The position numbers and the translations under genes were made by a program. DNA of 64,000 nt, taken from the NCBI RefSeq assembly GCF_021531055.1, contig NZ_JADYTL010000005.1, positions 124,001 to 188,000 on the forward strand, given 5' to 3'. Below, piece after piece: positions 25,958-52,433 of the stretch (positions are counted from its first letter, which is position 1; every line of letters begins with the position of its first letter). This DNA comes from Collinsella tanakaei (GTDB lineage: Bacteria; Actinomycetota; Coriobacteriia; Coriobacteriales; Coriobacteriaceae). Under the pieces are notes generated by a model that did no database searches, was not told the DNA's origin, and saw only the letters and a program-made list of their open reading frames with translations.

Positions 25958-28900
25958 TCAGCGTATGGTCCGAATTGCACCGCGCGTGATGCCGACGACC
26001 GCGACGATCAGCCCCACGACGAGCCCGGCGCTGCCCAAGGCGACGATTCCGGTCTGGTCGAGAAAGCGAATGGTCGTGCGCGGAACCTGGACGACCTCGT
26101 CCTCATCATGGTCTTCGAGGTCATCGCCCCCTCCGTTTCGATACAGATCGAGCGATGCGCGGTTGATCAGCTCGGTGCCGTCGCGATGCGCATCCGTCAC
26201 GCGCATATGGAGGATGGCGGGGGCGCGGAAGGCGTTGGCACCGTCTTCGGTCGCGAACGCTTCGTCGCGGTAGATAAGAGGCGGCTCGTGTACATCGTCG
26301 TGTTCATCCTTGAGATCATCTCGTTCCCAAAGGTCGTTACGCGTGGAGAATCCGGCCTCCACGCGACCGTATTCGAATCGAATCGCGGTGACGACTTCAT
26401 CTTCCGCAAGGTCGAGTTCGTCGACGGACAGTTTCGTCGCCTGTTCGGTCGGTATGTCGGCGCGCCACAGATGCCAGCCGGTGTAATTCAGGGCGCGCCC
26501 ATCGCTTCCGAGTGTGGAGACGGTGCTCTCATCGGAGAGCCACGGATTCTCGTGGCCGTCATAGATCGTGGCATTGGCGCTTGAGTCCTCGATGCGGTCG
26601 GATGATGACGATGTGCGATACCAGACGTTCATGAGCCCGTCGAAGTCGCCATGAGCCTGCGGCGTGGTGATGCCGGTAAGCTCGACGAGCCCCTTGTCCG
26701 CGCCATCGATCTCGTCGGTCATCGTGAATTCATCAACCCAGGTCGTGCTCGTGTTGCGCATATCGATGAGGTAGGAGAAGCGACCTTTGTCGGACCGGGT
26801 GACCTCGGCACGGTTGCTACCGTCGCCGTTTTCCTCGGTGTCACTCGCCACGGGGTCGGCGATCTCCTGTCGTTTGTCGACGTCTCCTGTGATGCGGATC
26901 GGTTCATCGTACATGACGACCGGTTGCACCTCACCCGTTTCCTCCACGGTGAACTCGATTTCGGTCGCTTTGTCGTGCGTACGCGGCTCGAAGGTCTCGA
27001 CGAGCCGGTAGGTTCCCGGCGCAAGGAAGGTGATGAGATGCGGGGACGATTCGGATACCCAGCTGTCGACGGTGTCGCCATCCGCATCGAGGACCGTCAG
27101 ATGCGCTCCTTCGAGTTCCTCCTCATCGGTGATATCGCGTTTGGATACCTCGATTTTCGTGAAATCGTCCTCCATCTCGATCGTCGCAGTCGGGGAGCCG
27201 TCTATGGTTCCCTGCTCTGAGACCGAGAACTCGATCAGATCGCTGTTGATAAGGTACCCGGCGGGGGCGGCTATCTCGATCATCCGATAGGTGCCGGCAA
27301 CCAGATGATCGATGGCGATGACTCCGTCCTCACCCGTTTCGAGTATCTGCGGTTCCTGGCCTTCTTGCAGCTCCGGTGGCGCTCCCGGTGCGATCTGGGA
27401 GCCCCCGGCCTCCTGATCGACGCGCCAGAGAGCGAACTGCGCTCCCGAGACGGCATGTCCTTCGATACCCAGTGCCGATTTGTGCAATTCGATTCGGTTC
27501 GGAGCGTTCGTGGCTTCGAGCTCGGTAGAGACCACCGCCGTATCCTTATCTTGCCATGTGAGCGTGAACTCGATCGGCGTGGCGTCGAGAACATGGCCTT
27601 CGGGGGCTTTCGTCTCGATGAAGGCGTAGGACGTCTCATCGCATCCGAGTGGAAGCCCCTCGATGCTGGCGATTCCGTCCTCGTCGGTCACCGCGTGCCC
27701 GATGACCGTGCCGGCGAGCACCTCGACCGCACCGCTCGGACCTACGATATCCTGTCGCGCGATGATGTCATACTCCGCCCCGGAGAGACGCTTTCCATCG
27801 TCCGCGCACGTCTTGACAAGCGATGCCGATCCTGTGGCACGGATGTCGTCCACCTCGACAACCACCACGGGCGTATCCGTCGTTTCGTCGATGGTAAAGA
27901 CCGTCTCTTCACCGTTGACGAGGTAGGGGGCGGGGCACTCGATCTCCCGTATCCGATATGTTCCTGCCCGCAGCAGTTCGGGCAGCGTGACTGCACCCGA
28001 TTCGTCGGTGGTGAACACTGCGGTGTCGACATGGTTCGGATACCAGGCGTCCTGTGATATCGCCTTGCCGCTCTCATCGAGGATCTCGAACGAGAAGCCG
28101 GCCAACGGCACGCGCTCACCGGTGCCTGCGTCATGTTTTACGATTTGGAGGCGCGTGGCGATGACTTGGTTGTCCACGATATAGCGAAGGGCCGCCCCAT
28201 CGATGAGCTGCGAGGCGGATATGCTCCACTCGTCGAGGGGCTCGAAGCCCTCGGGAGTCGTTTGCGGATTCTCCCTCACCGTGTAACCCTCGCGATCATA
28301 GGGAAGGGCGCCATGTGACGCTTCCGGTCGATCACCGGAGCCGAACCATTCGCCCTCGGTGGAAGCGTATCCATCGTCTCCAGTGGTGATCGATCCGACG
28401 ACGTCGCCGGTCGTATTCGAGATGATCTCGAATACGACGCCGACCGCGGGCGTCTGGTGTCCCGAGCCGTCATCGCTCCTGTCATCGAGGAACTTGGCTA
28501 TCTCCACATCGCAGGCTATGGGTACCTCGAGGAAGTCGGCTTCGGGGGCAAGGGTGATACTGGCCTTACCGTCGAGGTCGTCCGCCGTGACGGAGTAGCT
28601 ATGCACGGTCTCGTCGAGCAAGTATCCTTCCGGTGCCTTGGTTTCAACGACGCGGATGTCACCGAGGGGGATGTTCTCGAAGGTCAGCATGCCCTGCTCG
28701 TCTGTCGTTCCCGTGAGTTCGAACCCCGCTGTGGCATCCGATACGAGATGAAACTCGGCGCCGGCGAGCGATGCGCCGGTCTGCGCGGCGCCGCGCGTCG
28801 CCGCATCCCGTTTGGATACGACGAGCTTGAAGGTACCCGGGCTATCGGAAAGTTCCACCCTCGACGGTTCGGTGCCCGTCGAGAATTCAACCTTCTTCTC

Positions 28901-29881
28901 GCTTTTCACGAATCCCGCAGGGGCTTTCGTCTCGATGGCGTAGTAATCGGTATTCGGTGCCAGCGTAAGCGACGCCCGGCCCTGCTCATCCGTTGAGATG
29001 GAGGCGACCTTCGAATCGTCGTCGGCTCGATAGATGTCATAGGACGCACCGGCGTAGCTGTACGATTCGTTGCCGGCGGTCGTGCTTACCTCTGCCGACA
29101 CCTTGGTAAAGCGGACGGTGACGCGCTTCTCGGCGGTAACGAGGCATTGGTAGTCGAAGGTTCCGGCGGTGCCCTTCGTTTTGTTGACCCACAGGATGGC
29201 GCATCCCTCCTCGTCGCCTTCTCCACCATCCTTTTTGTATGCGAGTCCCTCTTGGTACAAACGCCAAGCGGCATCCTTCGTGTCCTCGTCCTCGATGAGT
29301 TGCCAGCGCTCCAGATACATCTGATTGCCGTGGAACGATCCTCCGCTTGCCGTCTCGTAGTCGAGGACATCTCCGCGTTGGTCGGCGATGGCGAGCCAGA
29401 TCGCGGCGGCGGTCGCCGCTTCCGAGCGTTTCTTATCCAAGCCGTACAACGATGTGACGATCTTCCCGTCGTATCCGTGATACATGACGTAGTCGAGTTC
29501 CGGGATGTCCAACGTGCCGTAGCGGTCCAGCTTCTGGTCGACGTTCGGCGTCCGCAGCCAGCCCTGCGCGCAGTATGCGACGGAGGAGGTCGACCCGCTC
29601 ACGCGAAAGAAATGACCGTCGCCGCCGGGATAGTAGGGGTTCGACGGTACCGACGTGACCGTGATCGTACCCGAAGCGGCGTTTGCGGTGGAGACGGTGA
29701 GCACAGGGATGAGAGCGGTCAAGGCGAGCATCACGATCGCACCGAGAGCGATGATCAGCCGAGCCTGCAGCGGTGATCCATCCGTCATCCAGGGGTGTGT
29801 CGTGTCGCGTGGGAAAGGCCCACAGCGTCTCCGATGTTTCGAATGACATGTGATTCGCTTGATATGTGACCAAGCATCCAT
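25958..29881 (-). CDS. Large CnaB-repeat surface adhesin with N-terminal thioester-like domain
   Basis: 1307 residues. A long signal region (positive stretch, then IIALGAIVMLALTALIPVL, cleavage near ANA-ASG at about 68) leads to a thioester-like domain with YCAQG (Cys about 104) and TAAAIW (about 157). Roughly seven CnaB/SpaA-type repeats follow, recognisable by recurring VVETKAPEGY, FIETKAPEGH and IEIAAPAGYL strands and Lys-bearing first strands; a larger beta domain precedes the C-terminus. The end has VPRTT, a hydrophobic helix and a short basic tail, a possible variant sorting signal. The ATG at 29879-29881 has AAGGAGG 7 bases upstream. It is a cell-wall-anchored adhesin or pilin by inference. 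Confidence 0.88.
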   Translation of the reverse strand: MDAWSHIKRITCHSKHRRRCGPFPRDTTHPWMTDGSPLQARLIIALGAIVMLALTALIPVLTVSTANAASGTITVTSVPSNPYYPGGDGHFFRVSGSTSSVAYCAQGWLRTPNVDQKLDRYGTLDIPELDYVMYHGYDGKIVTSLYGLDKKRSEAATAAAIWLAIADQRGDVLDYETASGGSFHGNQMYLERWQLIEDEDTKDAAWRLYQEGLAYKKDGGEGDEEGCAILWVNKTKGTAGTFDYQCLVTAEKRVTVRFTKVSAEVSTTAGNESYSYAGASYDIYRADDDSKVASISTDEQGRASLTLAPNTDYYAIETKAPAGFVKSEKKVEFSTGTEPSRVELSDSPGTFKLVVSKRDAATRGAAQTGASLAGAEFHLVSDATAGFELTGTTDEQGMLTFENIPLGDIRVVETKAPEGYLLDETVHSYSVTADDLDGKASITLAPEADFLEVPIACDVEIAKFLDDRSDDGSGHQTPAVGVVFEIISNTTGDVVGSITTGDDGYASTEGEWFGSGDRPEASHGALPYDREGYTVRENPQTTPEGFEPLDEWSISASQLIDGAALRYIVDNQVIATRLQIVKHDAGTGERVPLAGFSFEILDESGKAISQDAWYPNHVDTAVFTTDESGAVTLPELLRAGTYRIREIECPAPYLVNGEETVFTIDETTDTPVVVVEVDDIRATGSASLVKTCADDGKRLSGAEYDIIARQDIVGPSGAVEVLAGTVIGHAVTDEDGIASIEGLPLGCDETSYAFIETKAPEGHVLDATPIEFTLTWQDKDTAVVSTELEATNAPNRIELHKSALGIEGHAVSGAQFALWRVDQEAGGSQIAPGAPPELQEGQEPQILETGEDGVIAIDHLVAGTYRMIEIAAPAGYLINSDLIEFSVSEQGTIDGSPTATIEMEDDFTKIEVSKRDITDEEELEGAHLTVLDADGDTVDSWVSESSPHLITFLAPGTYRLVETFEPRTHDKATEIEFTVEETGEVQPVVMYDEPIRITGDVDKRQEIADPVASDTEENGDGSNRAEVTRSDKGRFSYLIDMRNTSTTWVDEFTMTDEIDGADKGLVELTGITTPQAHGDFDGLMNVWYRTSSSSDRIEDSSANATIYDGHENPWLSDESTVSTLGSDGRALNYTGWHLWRADIPTEQATKLSVDELDLAEDEVVTAIRFEYGRVEAGFSTRNDLWERDDLKDEHDDVHEPPLIYRDEAFATEDGANAFRAPAILHMRVTDAHRDGTELINRASLDLYRNGGGDDLEDHDEDEVVQVPRTTIRFLDQTGIVALGSAGLVVGLIVAVVGITRGAIRTIR

Positions 29882-30107
29882 TGGTCGACCTCCTTCTCTC
29901 GGGTGGAAGGTCGACTGTACGGTGCGCATCTTACCTGCGTATGCAGGGTATCGGACAGGACGGGGACGGCAGATGGAAGCAATCCGACAGGATTCCGACA
30001 CCGCAGCGTGCGGACGGGCGTTATGGCCGCATCGGCGGCCGGACGGTGATGTTAGCCGGAAAACATCACGGCGACTCCATAGCCCGCCCACCCGGTTCTT
30101 CCGCTCC

Positions 30108-30136
30108 TTGCCCCGCGCCGGAGCGCACGGTATACT
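30108..30136 (+). promoter_or_regulatory. Promoter of tRNA-Gly
   Basis: TTGCCC at 30108-30113 and TATACT at 30131-30136 are spaced by 17 bp and lie about 27 bp before the mature tRNA. The rest of 29882-30162 shows no gene. Confidence 0.6.
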
Positions 30137-30162
30137 ACTTCCTGCACCTACGTGCACCACAT

Positions 30163-30237
30163 GCGGGCATCGCCAAGTGGTAAGGCATCAGCTTCCCAAG
30201 CTGACACTCGCGGGTTCGAGTCCCGTTGCCCGCTCCA
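30163..30237 (+). tRNA. tRNA-Gly (anticodon CCC)
   Basis: Complete cloverleaf: acceptor GCGGGCA / TGCCCGC, D arm GCC..GGC, anticodon loop TTCCCAA giving CCC (reads GGG), T arm with GGTTCGAGT, discriminator T and an encoded CCA at 30235-30237. The last part of the gene from position 30217 recurs at 30397. Confidence 0.95.
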
Positions 30238-30433
30238 GGATCATCACGGCACCTACTGGGTGCCGTTTCCTTTTTCGGGCTTGTTTCACGGACTCGAACC
30301 CGTTTGGGTCGCGAGGCTGAGCAAACGCGTGAGCGTTTGCCAGCGAGCGTGCGAGGGCGCGTGAGCGCCCGAAGCTGCGGACGGCGCAGCCGGACGCGAG
30401 TCCCGTTGCCCGCTCCAGGATCATCACGGCACC
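30217..30433 (+). repeat. tRNA-Gly-associated hairpin element flanked by a 37-bp duplication of the tRNA 3' end
   Basis: The 37 bp from 30217 to 30253 (T-arm 3' half, acceptor, CCA and start of the terminator) recur exactly at 30397-30433, 180 bp away. Between them, 30290-30302 is the exact reverse complement of the tRNA T arm (30211-30223). Then come three hairpins: CAAACGC-GTGA-GCGTTTG (30322-30339), GGGCGC-GTGA-GCGCCC (30355-30370) and GCTGC...GCAGC (30374-30390). Copies of the same architecture adjoin tRNA-Ser near 44.6-44.9 kb. Confidence 0.85.
30246..30273 (+). terminator. Terminator directly after tRNA-Gly
   Basis: CGGCACC and GGTGCCG pair around a short loop, followed by TTTCCTTTTT. 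It is partly inside the duplicated 37-bp block. Confidence 0.75.
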
Positions 30434-30455: not shown

Positions 30456-30519
30456 GGGAAAATAGGGACAGGCACCTTTTTCCCACCAGTGGGAAAAAGG
30501 TGCCTGTCCCTATTTTCCC
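30456..30519. repeat. Long perfect inverted repeat of the GGTGCCTGTCCC family
   Basis: 30-bp perfect arms (30456-30485 / 30490-30519) with a 4-base loop. The arm contains GGGACAGGCACC next to GGGAAAAT. Related copies occur at 36736-36808, 52306-52433 and, shortened, at 63120. It lies 60 bp before purB. Confidence 0.92.
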
Positions 30520-36735: not shown

Positions 36736-36808
36736 GGGAAAAAAGGTGCCTGTCCCCATTTTCCCATCCTGTACAGCGTGGGAAATACGTGCCTGTCCCC
36801 ATTTTCCC
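36736..36808. repeat. Tandem GGTGCCTGTCCCC repeats before purC
   Basis: Two direct near-identical units (36736-36765 and 36780-36808), each a GGGAAA start, GTGCCTGTCCCC core and ATTTTCCC end, lie just after the kinase gene. They belong to the same family as the inverted repeats at 30456 and 52306. Confidence 0.9.
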
Positions 36809-44601: not shown

Positions 44602-44739
44602 GGCGGAGAGAGAGGGATGTCGGCCGCCGCTTCGCGGCGACCTCCCGCTGTGGAGGCCTGCGGCCTCCTTGCGCGCTTCGCTGGAAAATGCTCACGCATT
44701 TTCGCAGCTTCGCGCCCTGCGGGTTCGAATCCCTCTCGC
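44602..44739 (-). repeat. tRNA-Ser-associated hairpin element, distal copy
   Basis: In plus orientation: tRNA-Ser 3'-end sequence (44602-44617), hairpin CGCCGC-TTC-GCGGCG (44625-44639), hairpin GGAGGCC-TGC-GGCCTCC (44652-44668), hairpin GAAAATGC-TCAC-GCATTTTC (44684-44703) and an inverted T-arm/acceptor copy (44721-44739). Reading in the tRNA direction, it starts with antisense tRNA and ends with sense tRNA. It has no open frame of note. Confidence 0.85.
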
Positions 44740-44794
44740 ATCTGGTCGAAGCGGGCCCCGGGCCTTAAGTCATTGCGTTGTCGTAAAGGTGGCT

Positions 44795-44936
44795 GGCGGA
44801 GAGAGAGGGATGTCGGCCGCCGCTTCGCGGCGACCTCCCGCTGCGGGCGGCTGCGCCGCCCTTGCGACTCATGCTGGCAAAGACGCTCACGCGCTTTGCG
44901 CAGCATGAGGCCCTGCGGGTTCGAATCCCTCTCGCC
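44795..44936 (-). repeat. tRNA-Ser-associated hairpin element, proximal copy
   Basis: Same layout 193 bp further on: tRNA 3'-end copy 44795-44810, hairpin 44818-44832, GGGCGGC-TGC-GCCGCCC 44845-44861, a long stem CTCATGCTG/CAGCATGAG (44868-44876 / 44901-44909) enclosing GCTCACGC (44885-44892), and the inverted tRNA copy 44917-44936. Stem sequences differ from the distal copy but pairing is kept. The stretch that follows the CCA end of the tRNA is also duplicated at 44773-44794. Confidence 0.85.
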
Positions 44937-44989
44937 CTCAGTTGAAGCGGGCTGCTGGCCTCAGACTATTTCGTTGTCGTAAAGGTGGC

Positions 44990-45079
44990 TGGCGGAGAGA
45001 GAGGGATTCGAACCCTCGGAACGCTCGCGCGCTCAACGGTTTTCAAGACCGCCGCATTCAACCGCTCTGCCATCTCTCC
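44990..45079 (-). tRNA. tRNA-Ser (anticodon TGA)
   Basis: On the minus strand: acceptor GGAGAGA / TCTCTCC, D arm, anticodon loop CTTGAAA giving TGA (reads UCA), a long variable arm typical of serine tRNAs, T arm GGGTTCGAATCCC, discriminator G and encoded CCA at 44990-44992. Confidence 0.95.
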
Positions 45080-52305: not shown

Positions 52306-52433
52306 GGGAAAATGGGGACGGGCGCTGGGAAAATGGGGACGGGCACTTATTTCCCACCGCGTGGGAAATAAGTGCCCGTCCCCATTTTCCCAGCGCCCGT
52401 CCCCATTTTCCCAGCGCCCGTCCCCATTTTCCC
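52306..52433. repeat. 52-bp perfect inverted repeat, compound GGGGACGGGC family
   Basis: Arms 52306-52357 and 52361-52412 are perfect complements around CGC. Each arm holds two GGGAAAATGGGGACGGGC units. An extra 21-bp unit (52413-52433) follows on the right. It fills the whole gap between the ABC exporter and the convergent DeoR gene and could form a very long hairpin in either transcript. Confidence 0.95.

Follow-up and report, generated by a model that had tools for sequence, protein, structure and literature searches.

What are the two tandem hairpin elements that follow a tRNA-Ser gene in Collinsella tanakaei, and how do they keep their pairing while their sequence changes? A preliminary description of the 64,000-nucleotide stretch analysed here (the window) placed the two copies 193 bp apart, with the end of the tRNA another 196 bp on, and offered two answers: that selection acts on structure, or that each copy was remade from a folding template. 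The copies do start at 44602 and 44795, 193 apart, and GGCGGAGAGAGAGGGAT, the 17-mer that opens both, occurs again at 44991, 196 on, inside the tRNA-Ser(UGA) gene that hosts the array (44990..45079, minus strand; ARAGORN and Rfam). This 17-mer is the complement of the tRNA-Ser(UGA) 3' end. Since the repeat starts with the tRNA 3' end itself, the array begins with the tRNA, whose T-loop-to-CCA stretch supplies the end sequence that recurs in the units. The tRNA as array member, the minus strand as the relevant one, a third copy at 30284 and the identity of the outer parts as pieces of the local tRNA all go beyond what had been described.

The array behind tRNA-Ser(UGA) and a third unit

Read on the tRNA strand, the tRNA ends in GGTTCGAATCCCTCTCTCTCCGCCA and is followed by a 53-nt trailer between its CCA and the first unit (44937..44989, minus), in which no clear intrinsic terminator is found, then by the proximal unit with its ATCCCTCTCTCTCCGCCA copy, a partial copy of the trailer, the distal unit and lastly an ATCCCTCTCTCTCCGCC copy. 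It is the first ~18-20 nt of the trailer that recur, at ~44776-44793, with 95% identity over 20 nt. The proximal unit (copy 2 of the preliminary description) measures 143 nt from antisense T-arm to CCA (44794..44936, minus), and the distal unit (copy 1) lies at 44602..44739 (minus). Each starts with GAGAGGGATTCGAACCC, the antisense of that tRNA's own T-arm, so the two strands of the outer stem both represent the local tRNA end, one in antisense and one in sense. In the proximal unit the left strand of this stem, seen as an inverted repeat, is GGCGAGAGGGATTCGAACCC (44917..44936, minus), antisense to the tRNA-Ser T-arm and part of the acceptor, and the right end is an exact copy of the tRNA-Ser 3' end (44794..44811, minus). 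The distal unit has its antisense T-arm strand at 44721..44739 and its tRNA-Ser 3'-end copy, with CCA decayed to CCC, at 44602..44618 (both minus).

Inside each array unit are a tiny CCC/GGG hairpin and three larger hairpins, A, B and C, all given here on the minus strand. Hairpin A, the third hairpin as originally reported, is confirmed at 44868-44909 in the proximal unit (CTCATGCTG/CAGCATGAG type) and at 44673-44715 in the distal one (GAAAATGC/GCATTTTC type). The stems reported for the second hairpin, here hairpin B, are exact: GGGCGGC-TGC-GCCGCCC at 44845-44861 in the proximal unit and GGAGGCC-TGC-GGCCTCC at 44652-44668 in the distal unit. Hairpin C (44815..44835 proximal, 44622..44642 distal) is identical in both. 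The minus-strand folds have z-scores of -5.8 (proximal) and -6.5 (distal), with 0 shuffles as stable, and the plus-strand folds of the two copies -4.6 and -3.3; the relevant strand of the array is the minus strand, that of the tRNA.

A third unit stands behind tRNA-Gly(CCC) (30163..30237, plus; ARAGORN) at 30284..30417 (plus). Here the antisense Gly T-arm at 30287-30300 precedes the core, and the right end, GAGTCCCGTTGCCCGCTCCA at 30398-30417, exactly copies the tRNA-Gly 3' end, whose original lies at 30218-30237. The tRNA-Gly terminator is doubled too, with CACGGCACC at 30245 and again at 30425, after the unit. A covariance model, R1, scores the three window copies at 111-133 bits (113.5 proximal, 133.3 distal, 110.8 behind tRNA-Gly) against 13.7 bits for the next window match, and a plasmid search returned one short Collinsella aerofaciens match.

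Other features also lie in the window. The GTCCCTATTTTCCC / GGGAAAATAGGGAC palindromes at 30456-30519, 36737-36808 and 52306-52433, some of them in short tandem clusters, are a REP-like family separate from the units behind tRNAs, and the translation of a 1400-aa open frame at 25958-30160 (minus) resembles a surface protein in which adhesin-type domains recur.

A structured family behind tRNA and tmRNA genes

The array copies belong to what is apparently an undescribed family of small structured non-coding units of gut Coriobacteriia, called tRNA-tail units here. A unit is ~190 bp long. Its structured core of ~95-100 nt contains four hairpins, one small and the other three larger; to the left of the core lies the local T-arm/acceptor strand, copied in antisense, and to its right a sense copy of the local tRNA 3' end, T-loop to CCA, after which a copy of the local trailer/terminator often comes. 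Rfam scans of the units gave no family above threshold, and a search confined to the open-access literature found no description of units behind tRNAs in these bacteria.

BLAST of the source genome and 60 relatives turned up many copies, and in the 60 loci fetched they lie ~55 nt downstream of a tRNA, whose orientation they share. R1 was built from 31 of the fetched copies and a second model, R2, from compact divergent members; the two were kept separate because all subfamilies in one alignment give a poor consensus. R1 finds 13 clear copies in the source genome, behind tRNA-Ser(UGA) (two), Val, Gly, Ala (two), Arg, Glu, Thr (two), Leu (two) and tmRNA, and 15 in the complete relative G184, all behind tRNA or tmRNA. 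The two copies that lack an upstream tRNA (source genome, G184) come after tmRNA, which has a tRNA-like 3' end, and it is the tmRNA T-arm that their ends match. Matches to R1 occur in 47 of 199 sampled genomes of the class Coriobacteriia: 29 of the 31 genomes of the same genus, the majority of those in the family and a few in the order. Matches to R2 occur in 73 of 298 class genomes from six families and in 2 of 296 genomes of a phylum-wide sample, where one match, from another actinobacterial class (L188), lies behind tRNA-Ser with a matching end. Many copies are shortened or interrupted, and in two genomes (G015, G033) no units were detected.

The tRNA/tmRNA context is essentially exclusive and the orientation fixed. 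A same-strand tRNA or tmRNA lies upstream of 117 of 122 model matches, at a median of 52 nt; the remaining five are two at a cut contig and three opposite-strand matches that overlap a tRNA or a unit. Phylum- and class-wide R2 searches gave 32 loci, a few of them overlapping R2 training loci, with an intact tRNA directly upstream in 29, a tRNA 3' fragment in two and a contig end in one. The tRNA hosts seen are Ser, Ala, Gln, Arg, Glu, Thr, Val, Lys, Leu, Gly, Phe, Trp and SeC. Ordinary REP palindromes with no preferred tRNA context, which the preliminary description named as a finding that would overturn it, are thus not what these units are. At L193 and L195 the unit is preceded by no more than a 3' fragment of a tRNA, a layout that integration of an island between tRNA and unit would produce.

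The suspicion that pairing is preserved under sequence change is borne out across the family. Among 121 distinct copies of the R1 set, 95.1% of cells pair and 27 of 30 pairs have changed on both sides, with a covariation score of 0.389 against 0.116 +/- 0.005 for shuffled alignments; among R2 matches, 94.9% pair, 23 of 28 pairs have changed on both sides and the score is 0.652 against 0.166, all of these numbers leaning upward with alignments fitted to the models and shuffles that ignore relatedness. None of 500 shuffles of the R1 set comes close, and sliding the partners leaves 33-49% paired; because of these slid controls the covariation is safe in kind, if not in exact size, and it lies far above the background that had been set as the refuting test. 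On the tRNA strand G-U pairs outnumber A-C pairs 79 to 18 (a count in which the model somewhat favours G-U), 334 of 597 hairpin loops are GNA or GNRA, and this strand folds more stably than its complement in 142 of 159 copies under RNA parameters and in 140 of 159 under DNA parameters. On covariation, G-U excess, loop types and strand stability together, single-stranded folding of the tRNA strand, as RNA or as single-stranded DNA, appears to be selected; since both parameter sets favour that strand, the fold test decides for neither.

Ends matching the local gene, and the apparent spread of cores

Both ends of a unit match the local gene. Right ends, shortened copies included, are on average 0.88 identical to their own upstream tRNA and 0.56 to other tRNAs, and the antisense run of the left strand to the local T-arm averages 13.9 nt against 9.3 nt for other tRNA types (p = 9e-21). 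This left-strand fit could alternatively reflect later selection on pairing, not copying. Of 96 copies, 40 repeat the trailer/terminator behind the copied CCA with >= 80% identity across 40 nt, where random pairs give a null with mean 0.29 and 95th percentile 0.475; in another 45 the 40-nt stretches that follow the two CCA ends are < 60% identical, so the terminator duplication is not always seen. At the tRNA-Gln loci L054 and L068 the antisense copy extends through CCA and trailer; at both loci a symmetric terminator hairpin sits between near-perfect inverted duplicates of the tRNA-Gln 3' end with its CCA and trailer. The proposal that copies were remade from a template fits the ends, with the local tRNA as template; for the hairpins it would be conjecture.

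What of the cores? In the source genome, the units behind Arg(CCU), Glu, Gly(CCC) and Ala(UGC) have a common ~97-nt core with few differing positions, while the flanks of these four differ, each fitting its own tRNA. Conversely, one orthologous tRNA-Gly carries different cores in different species groups, with the same Gly ends. Sites without a unit are also to be found. In G015 the tRNA-Ser(UGA) gene has one tRNA end, one terminator and no unit; at the G005 locus, 90% identical to it, tRNA end and terminator are doubled with a core between them. A unit at tRNA-Ser(UGA) is missing in many other relatives as well, G005 and G015 have none at tRNA-Gly, and the sets of unit-bearing tRNAs vary between species, with many orthologous tRNAs lacking a unit. 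The empty and filled sites fit insertion with a target duplication of ~60 bp that starts at the T-loop and takes in the whole terminator. Near-identical cores at different tRNAs, together with local ends and empty loci with a single end, make the units look like spreading units with target-derived ends. Gene conversion among old resident units could alternatively account for core similarity within a genome, and loss of old units would also give sites without one; either process is a possible partial contributor.

Proposed origin of the units and comparison with known systems

Taken as a whole, the data are probably best explained by cores that spread or are exchanged between tRNA genes and acquire ends from the local gene and a duplicated terminator. 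Insertion would carry the local tRNA end and terminator along as a long target duplication. How might this come about? Template switching during host DNA synthesis is a speculative route, and a rather doubtful one, with switch points at the near-universal, near-palindromic T-arm (GGTTCGAATCC) and at the terminator, both common to the targets. Switches at these two places would account for the unit's position, for a right end taken from the local tRNA and for the doubling of the terminator; fold-back copying of the local tRNA end would account for the antisense left strand; and once a unit is present, slippage or unequal exchange could yield tandem copies. Host DNA synthesis is favoured because the candidate enzymes are scarce or patchy and no gene-bearing larger version was found. 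An RVT_1 reverse transcriptase is absent in 13 of 14 genomes tested, including the source genome and other unit-bearing ones. Y1 transposase genes are present in the source genome and several relatives, and the unit-bearing genomes G026, G219, G140 and G065 give no Y1 match. At six loci, the 15 kb downstream contain no larger 'autonomous' version, in which a gene would separate the left part from the right. Beside a unit the tRNA itself is intact and its terminator is usually kept, so the unit probably costs the host little and may be regarded as a selfish hitch-hiker first. Processing of tRNA 3' ends in read-through transcripts could nonetheless produce a CCA-ended RNA, by analogy with RttR of E. 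coli.

Could the units instead be resident functional RNAs, regulatory or processing RNAs on tRNA genes that are inherited vertically and homogenised by gene conversion, their tRNA-like end retained for 3' processing or for binding tRNA enzymes? The strong covariation, the strand-specific loops, the presence throughout the class and RttR, an annotated small RNA ending at the CCA of a copied tRNA end, are all in keeping with this. It is nevertheless unlikely: unit-bearing tRNA sets vary by species, and many orthologous tRNAs are unit-free; many copies are shortened or interrupted; some genomes (G015, G033) have none detected; and a terminator precedes most units. A duplicated tRNA 3' end also recalls the attL/attR pair of a tyrosine integrase, and tRNA and tmRNA genes, where the units lie, are classic integrase targets. 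That the units are miniature integrative elements akin to genomic islands, with this direct repeat on both sides of each, is nonetheless improbable. They are ~190 bp long and gene-free, and their ends follow the local tRNA, whereas an integrated element brings its own att half. The terminator is often doubled too, no enlarged version with a right end appears in 15 kb downstream at six loci, and the core alignment, with cores at different tRNA types bearing changed ends, speaks against it.

The two remaining rivals invoke specific enzymes. A retro-element, moving by reverse transcription of a CCA-ended unit RNA and its target-primed insertion at tRNA genes, would have a plausible substrate in such a structured RNA and would fit the long target duplication, but with RVT_1 wanting in the source genome and all but one of the 14 tested it is very improbable. 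Mobilisation of ordinary REP/REPIN palindromes by a RAYT (Y1) transposase, with tRNA proximity arising by chance, has GC-rich palindromes and the Y1 genes of the source genome and several relatives on its side; since tRNA/tmRNA context and orientation are too regular to be incidental, and four unit-bearing genomes are without a Y1 match, it is scarcely credible. In four genomes a Y1 transposase (RAYT-like) gene does lie a few kb from a His-Lys-Lys tRNA cluster (G000:C13:15500, G036:C24:87278, G022:C12:94144, G184:C1:881179), apparently as a conserved neighbour.

The closest counterpart to the units is found in E. coli K-12, where three tandem 178-bp RtT units follow a tRNA-Tyr gene in the tyrT region. 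Each RtT unit has an outer strand, GGGGAAGGAT, antisense to the tRNA-Tyr T-stem/acceptor, several hairpins and an exact AATCCTTCCCCCACCACCA copy to CCA; the copied CCA is also the exact end point of the annotated RttR RNA. As in RtT (RF00391), the tandem units behind tRNA-Ser each contain a copy of the tRNA's 3'-terminal ~19 bp, and in E. coli and Coriobacteriia alike the fold is opened by an antisense T-stem/acceptor copy. Unlike RtT, the Coriobacteriia units stand behind many tRNAs and tmRNA, not tyrT alone, and apparently move between them. Aligned along the full length of RF00391, the two copies behind tRNA-Ser score 15.8 and 14.7 bits, below the 45-bit gathering score; the units hence have the RtT anatomy without belonging to that family by its defining test. 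In the 1.4-kb E. coli tyrT region the best three R1 matches are the three RtT repeats, with marginal E values of 0.01-0.04. Any sequence homology or common descent between the units and RtT is conjectural. With one genome per species, the RtT core pattern occurs in Enterobacteriaceae and, where the tRNA is visible, only behind tRNA-Tyr, two of the 20 stretches found looking like unrelated coding DNA.

Other known systems resemble the units in part. Genomic islands at tRNA/tmRNA genes likewise have the tRNA 3' end as a direct repeat on both sides; unlike them, the units are 190 bp long, have no integrase gene or cargo, and take their ends, and often a terminator, from the local gene. Like REP/REPIN sequences, they are non-coding, hairpin-forming and present in several copies per genome, but they occur only behind tRNA/tmRNA in a single orientation, with ends copied from the host gene and a five-way-junction-like fold. 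The Collinsella-1 RNA (RF01700), a structured RNA candidate from Actinobacteria and the human gut (PMC2864571), is comparable as a structured RNA candidate in Actinobacteria/gut. The link to it raised in the preliminary description gained no support, as its covariance model has 0 matches in the window scan, in a permissive locus scan and in 16 related loci.

In sum, the units make up an apparently mobile family that extends through the class and has ends derived from the host; it is a new variant of the RtT arrangement, and a much broader one. To our knowledge, RtT was known behind one tRNA; the E. coli repeats had long been an isolated oddity, and we know of no explanation of their arrangement since the 1970s. 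RtT-type anatomy is now multi-copy, class-wide and found behind many tRNAs and tmRNA. It suggests how a mobile unit can target essential genes harmlessly, by copying the piece that would otherwise be disrupted, and its tRNA-end copies can mislead the annotation of tRNAs and of genomic islands. Because filled, empty and truncated sites coexist, the origin, movement and transcription of such units are directly testable. A bolder reading, which we put forward tentatively and hold to be a real possibility short of a probability, is that they are bacterial mobile units of a new class, one that has no enzyme of its own and in which host DNA synthesis spreads the core and the target gene rewrites both ends, RtT being a stranded relative at a single locus; were it true, the RtT arrangement would be explained.

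Other repeats meet the units at their edges. Two shortened last copies end at such repeats, one with TGGGCAATTTGTTCAGATATGAAGGTT and one with GTCCCATTTTC. The former belongs to a ~190-bp MITE-like repeat with inverted ends TGGGCAATTTGTTCAGATATGAAGGTT (L181 5962-6155 and 12620-12813; L184 5327-5526), part of one of which adjoins a truncated unit behind tRNA-Ala (L052; L182 about 600); the latter repeat, related to the GTCCCTATTTTCCC / GGGAAAATAGGGAC palindromes of the window, adjoins a truncated unit at L056. Lastly, a very divergent unit-like stretch behind tRNA-Gly in another family of the order (L267, genome G044) has the tRNA end copied and a different core, and on this locus the phenomenon may be wider than R1 and R2 show.
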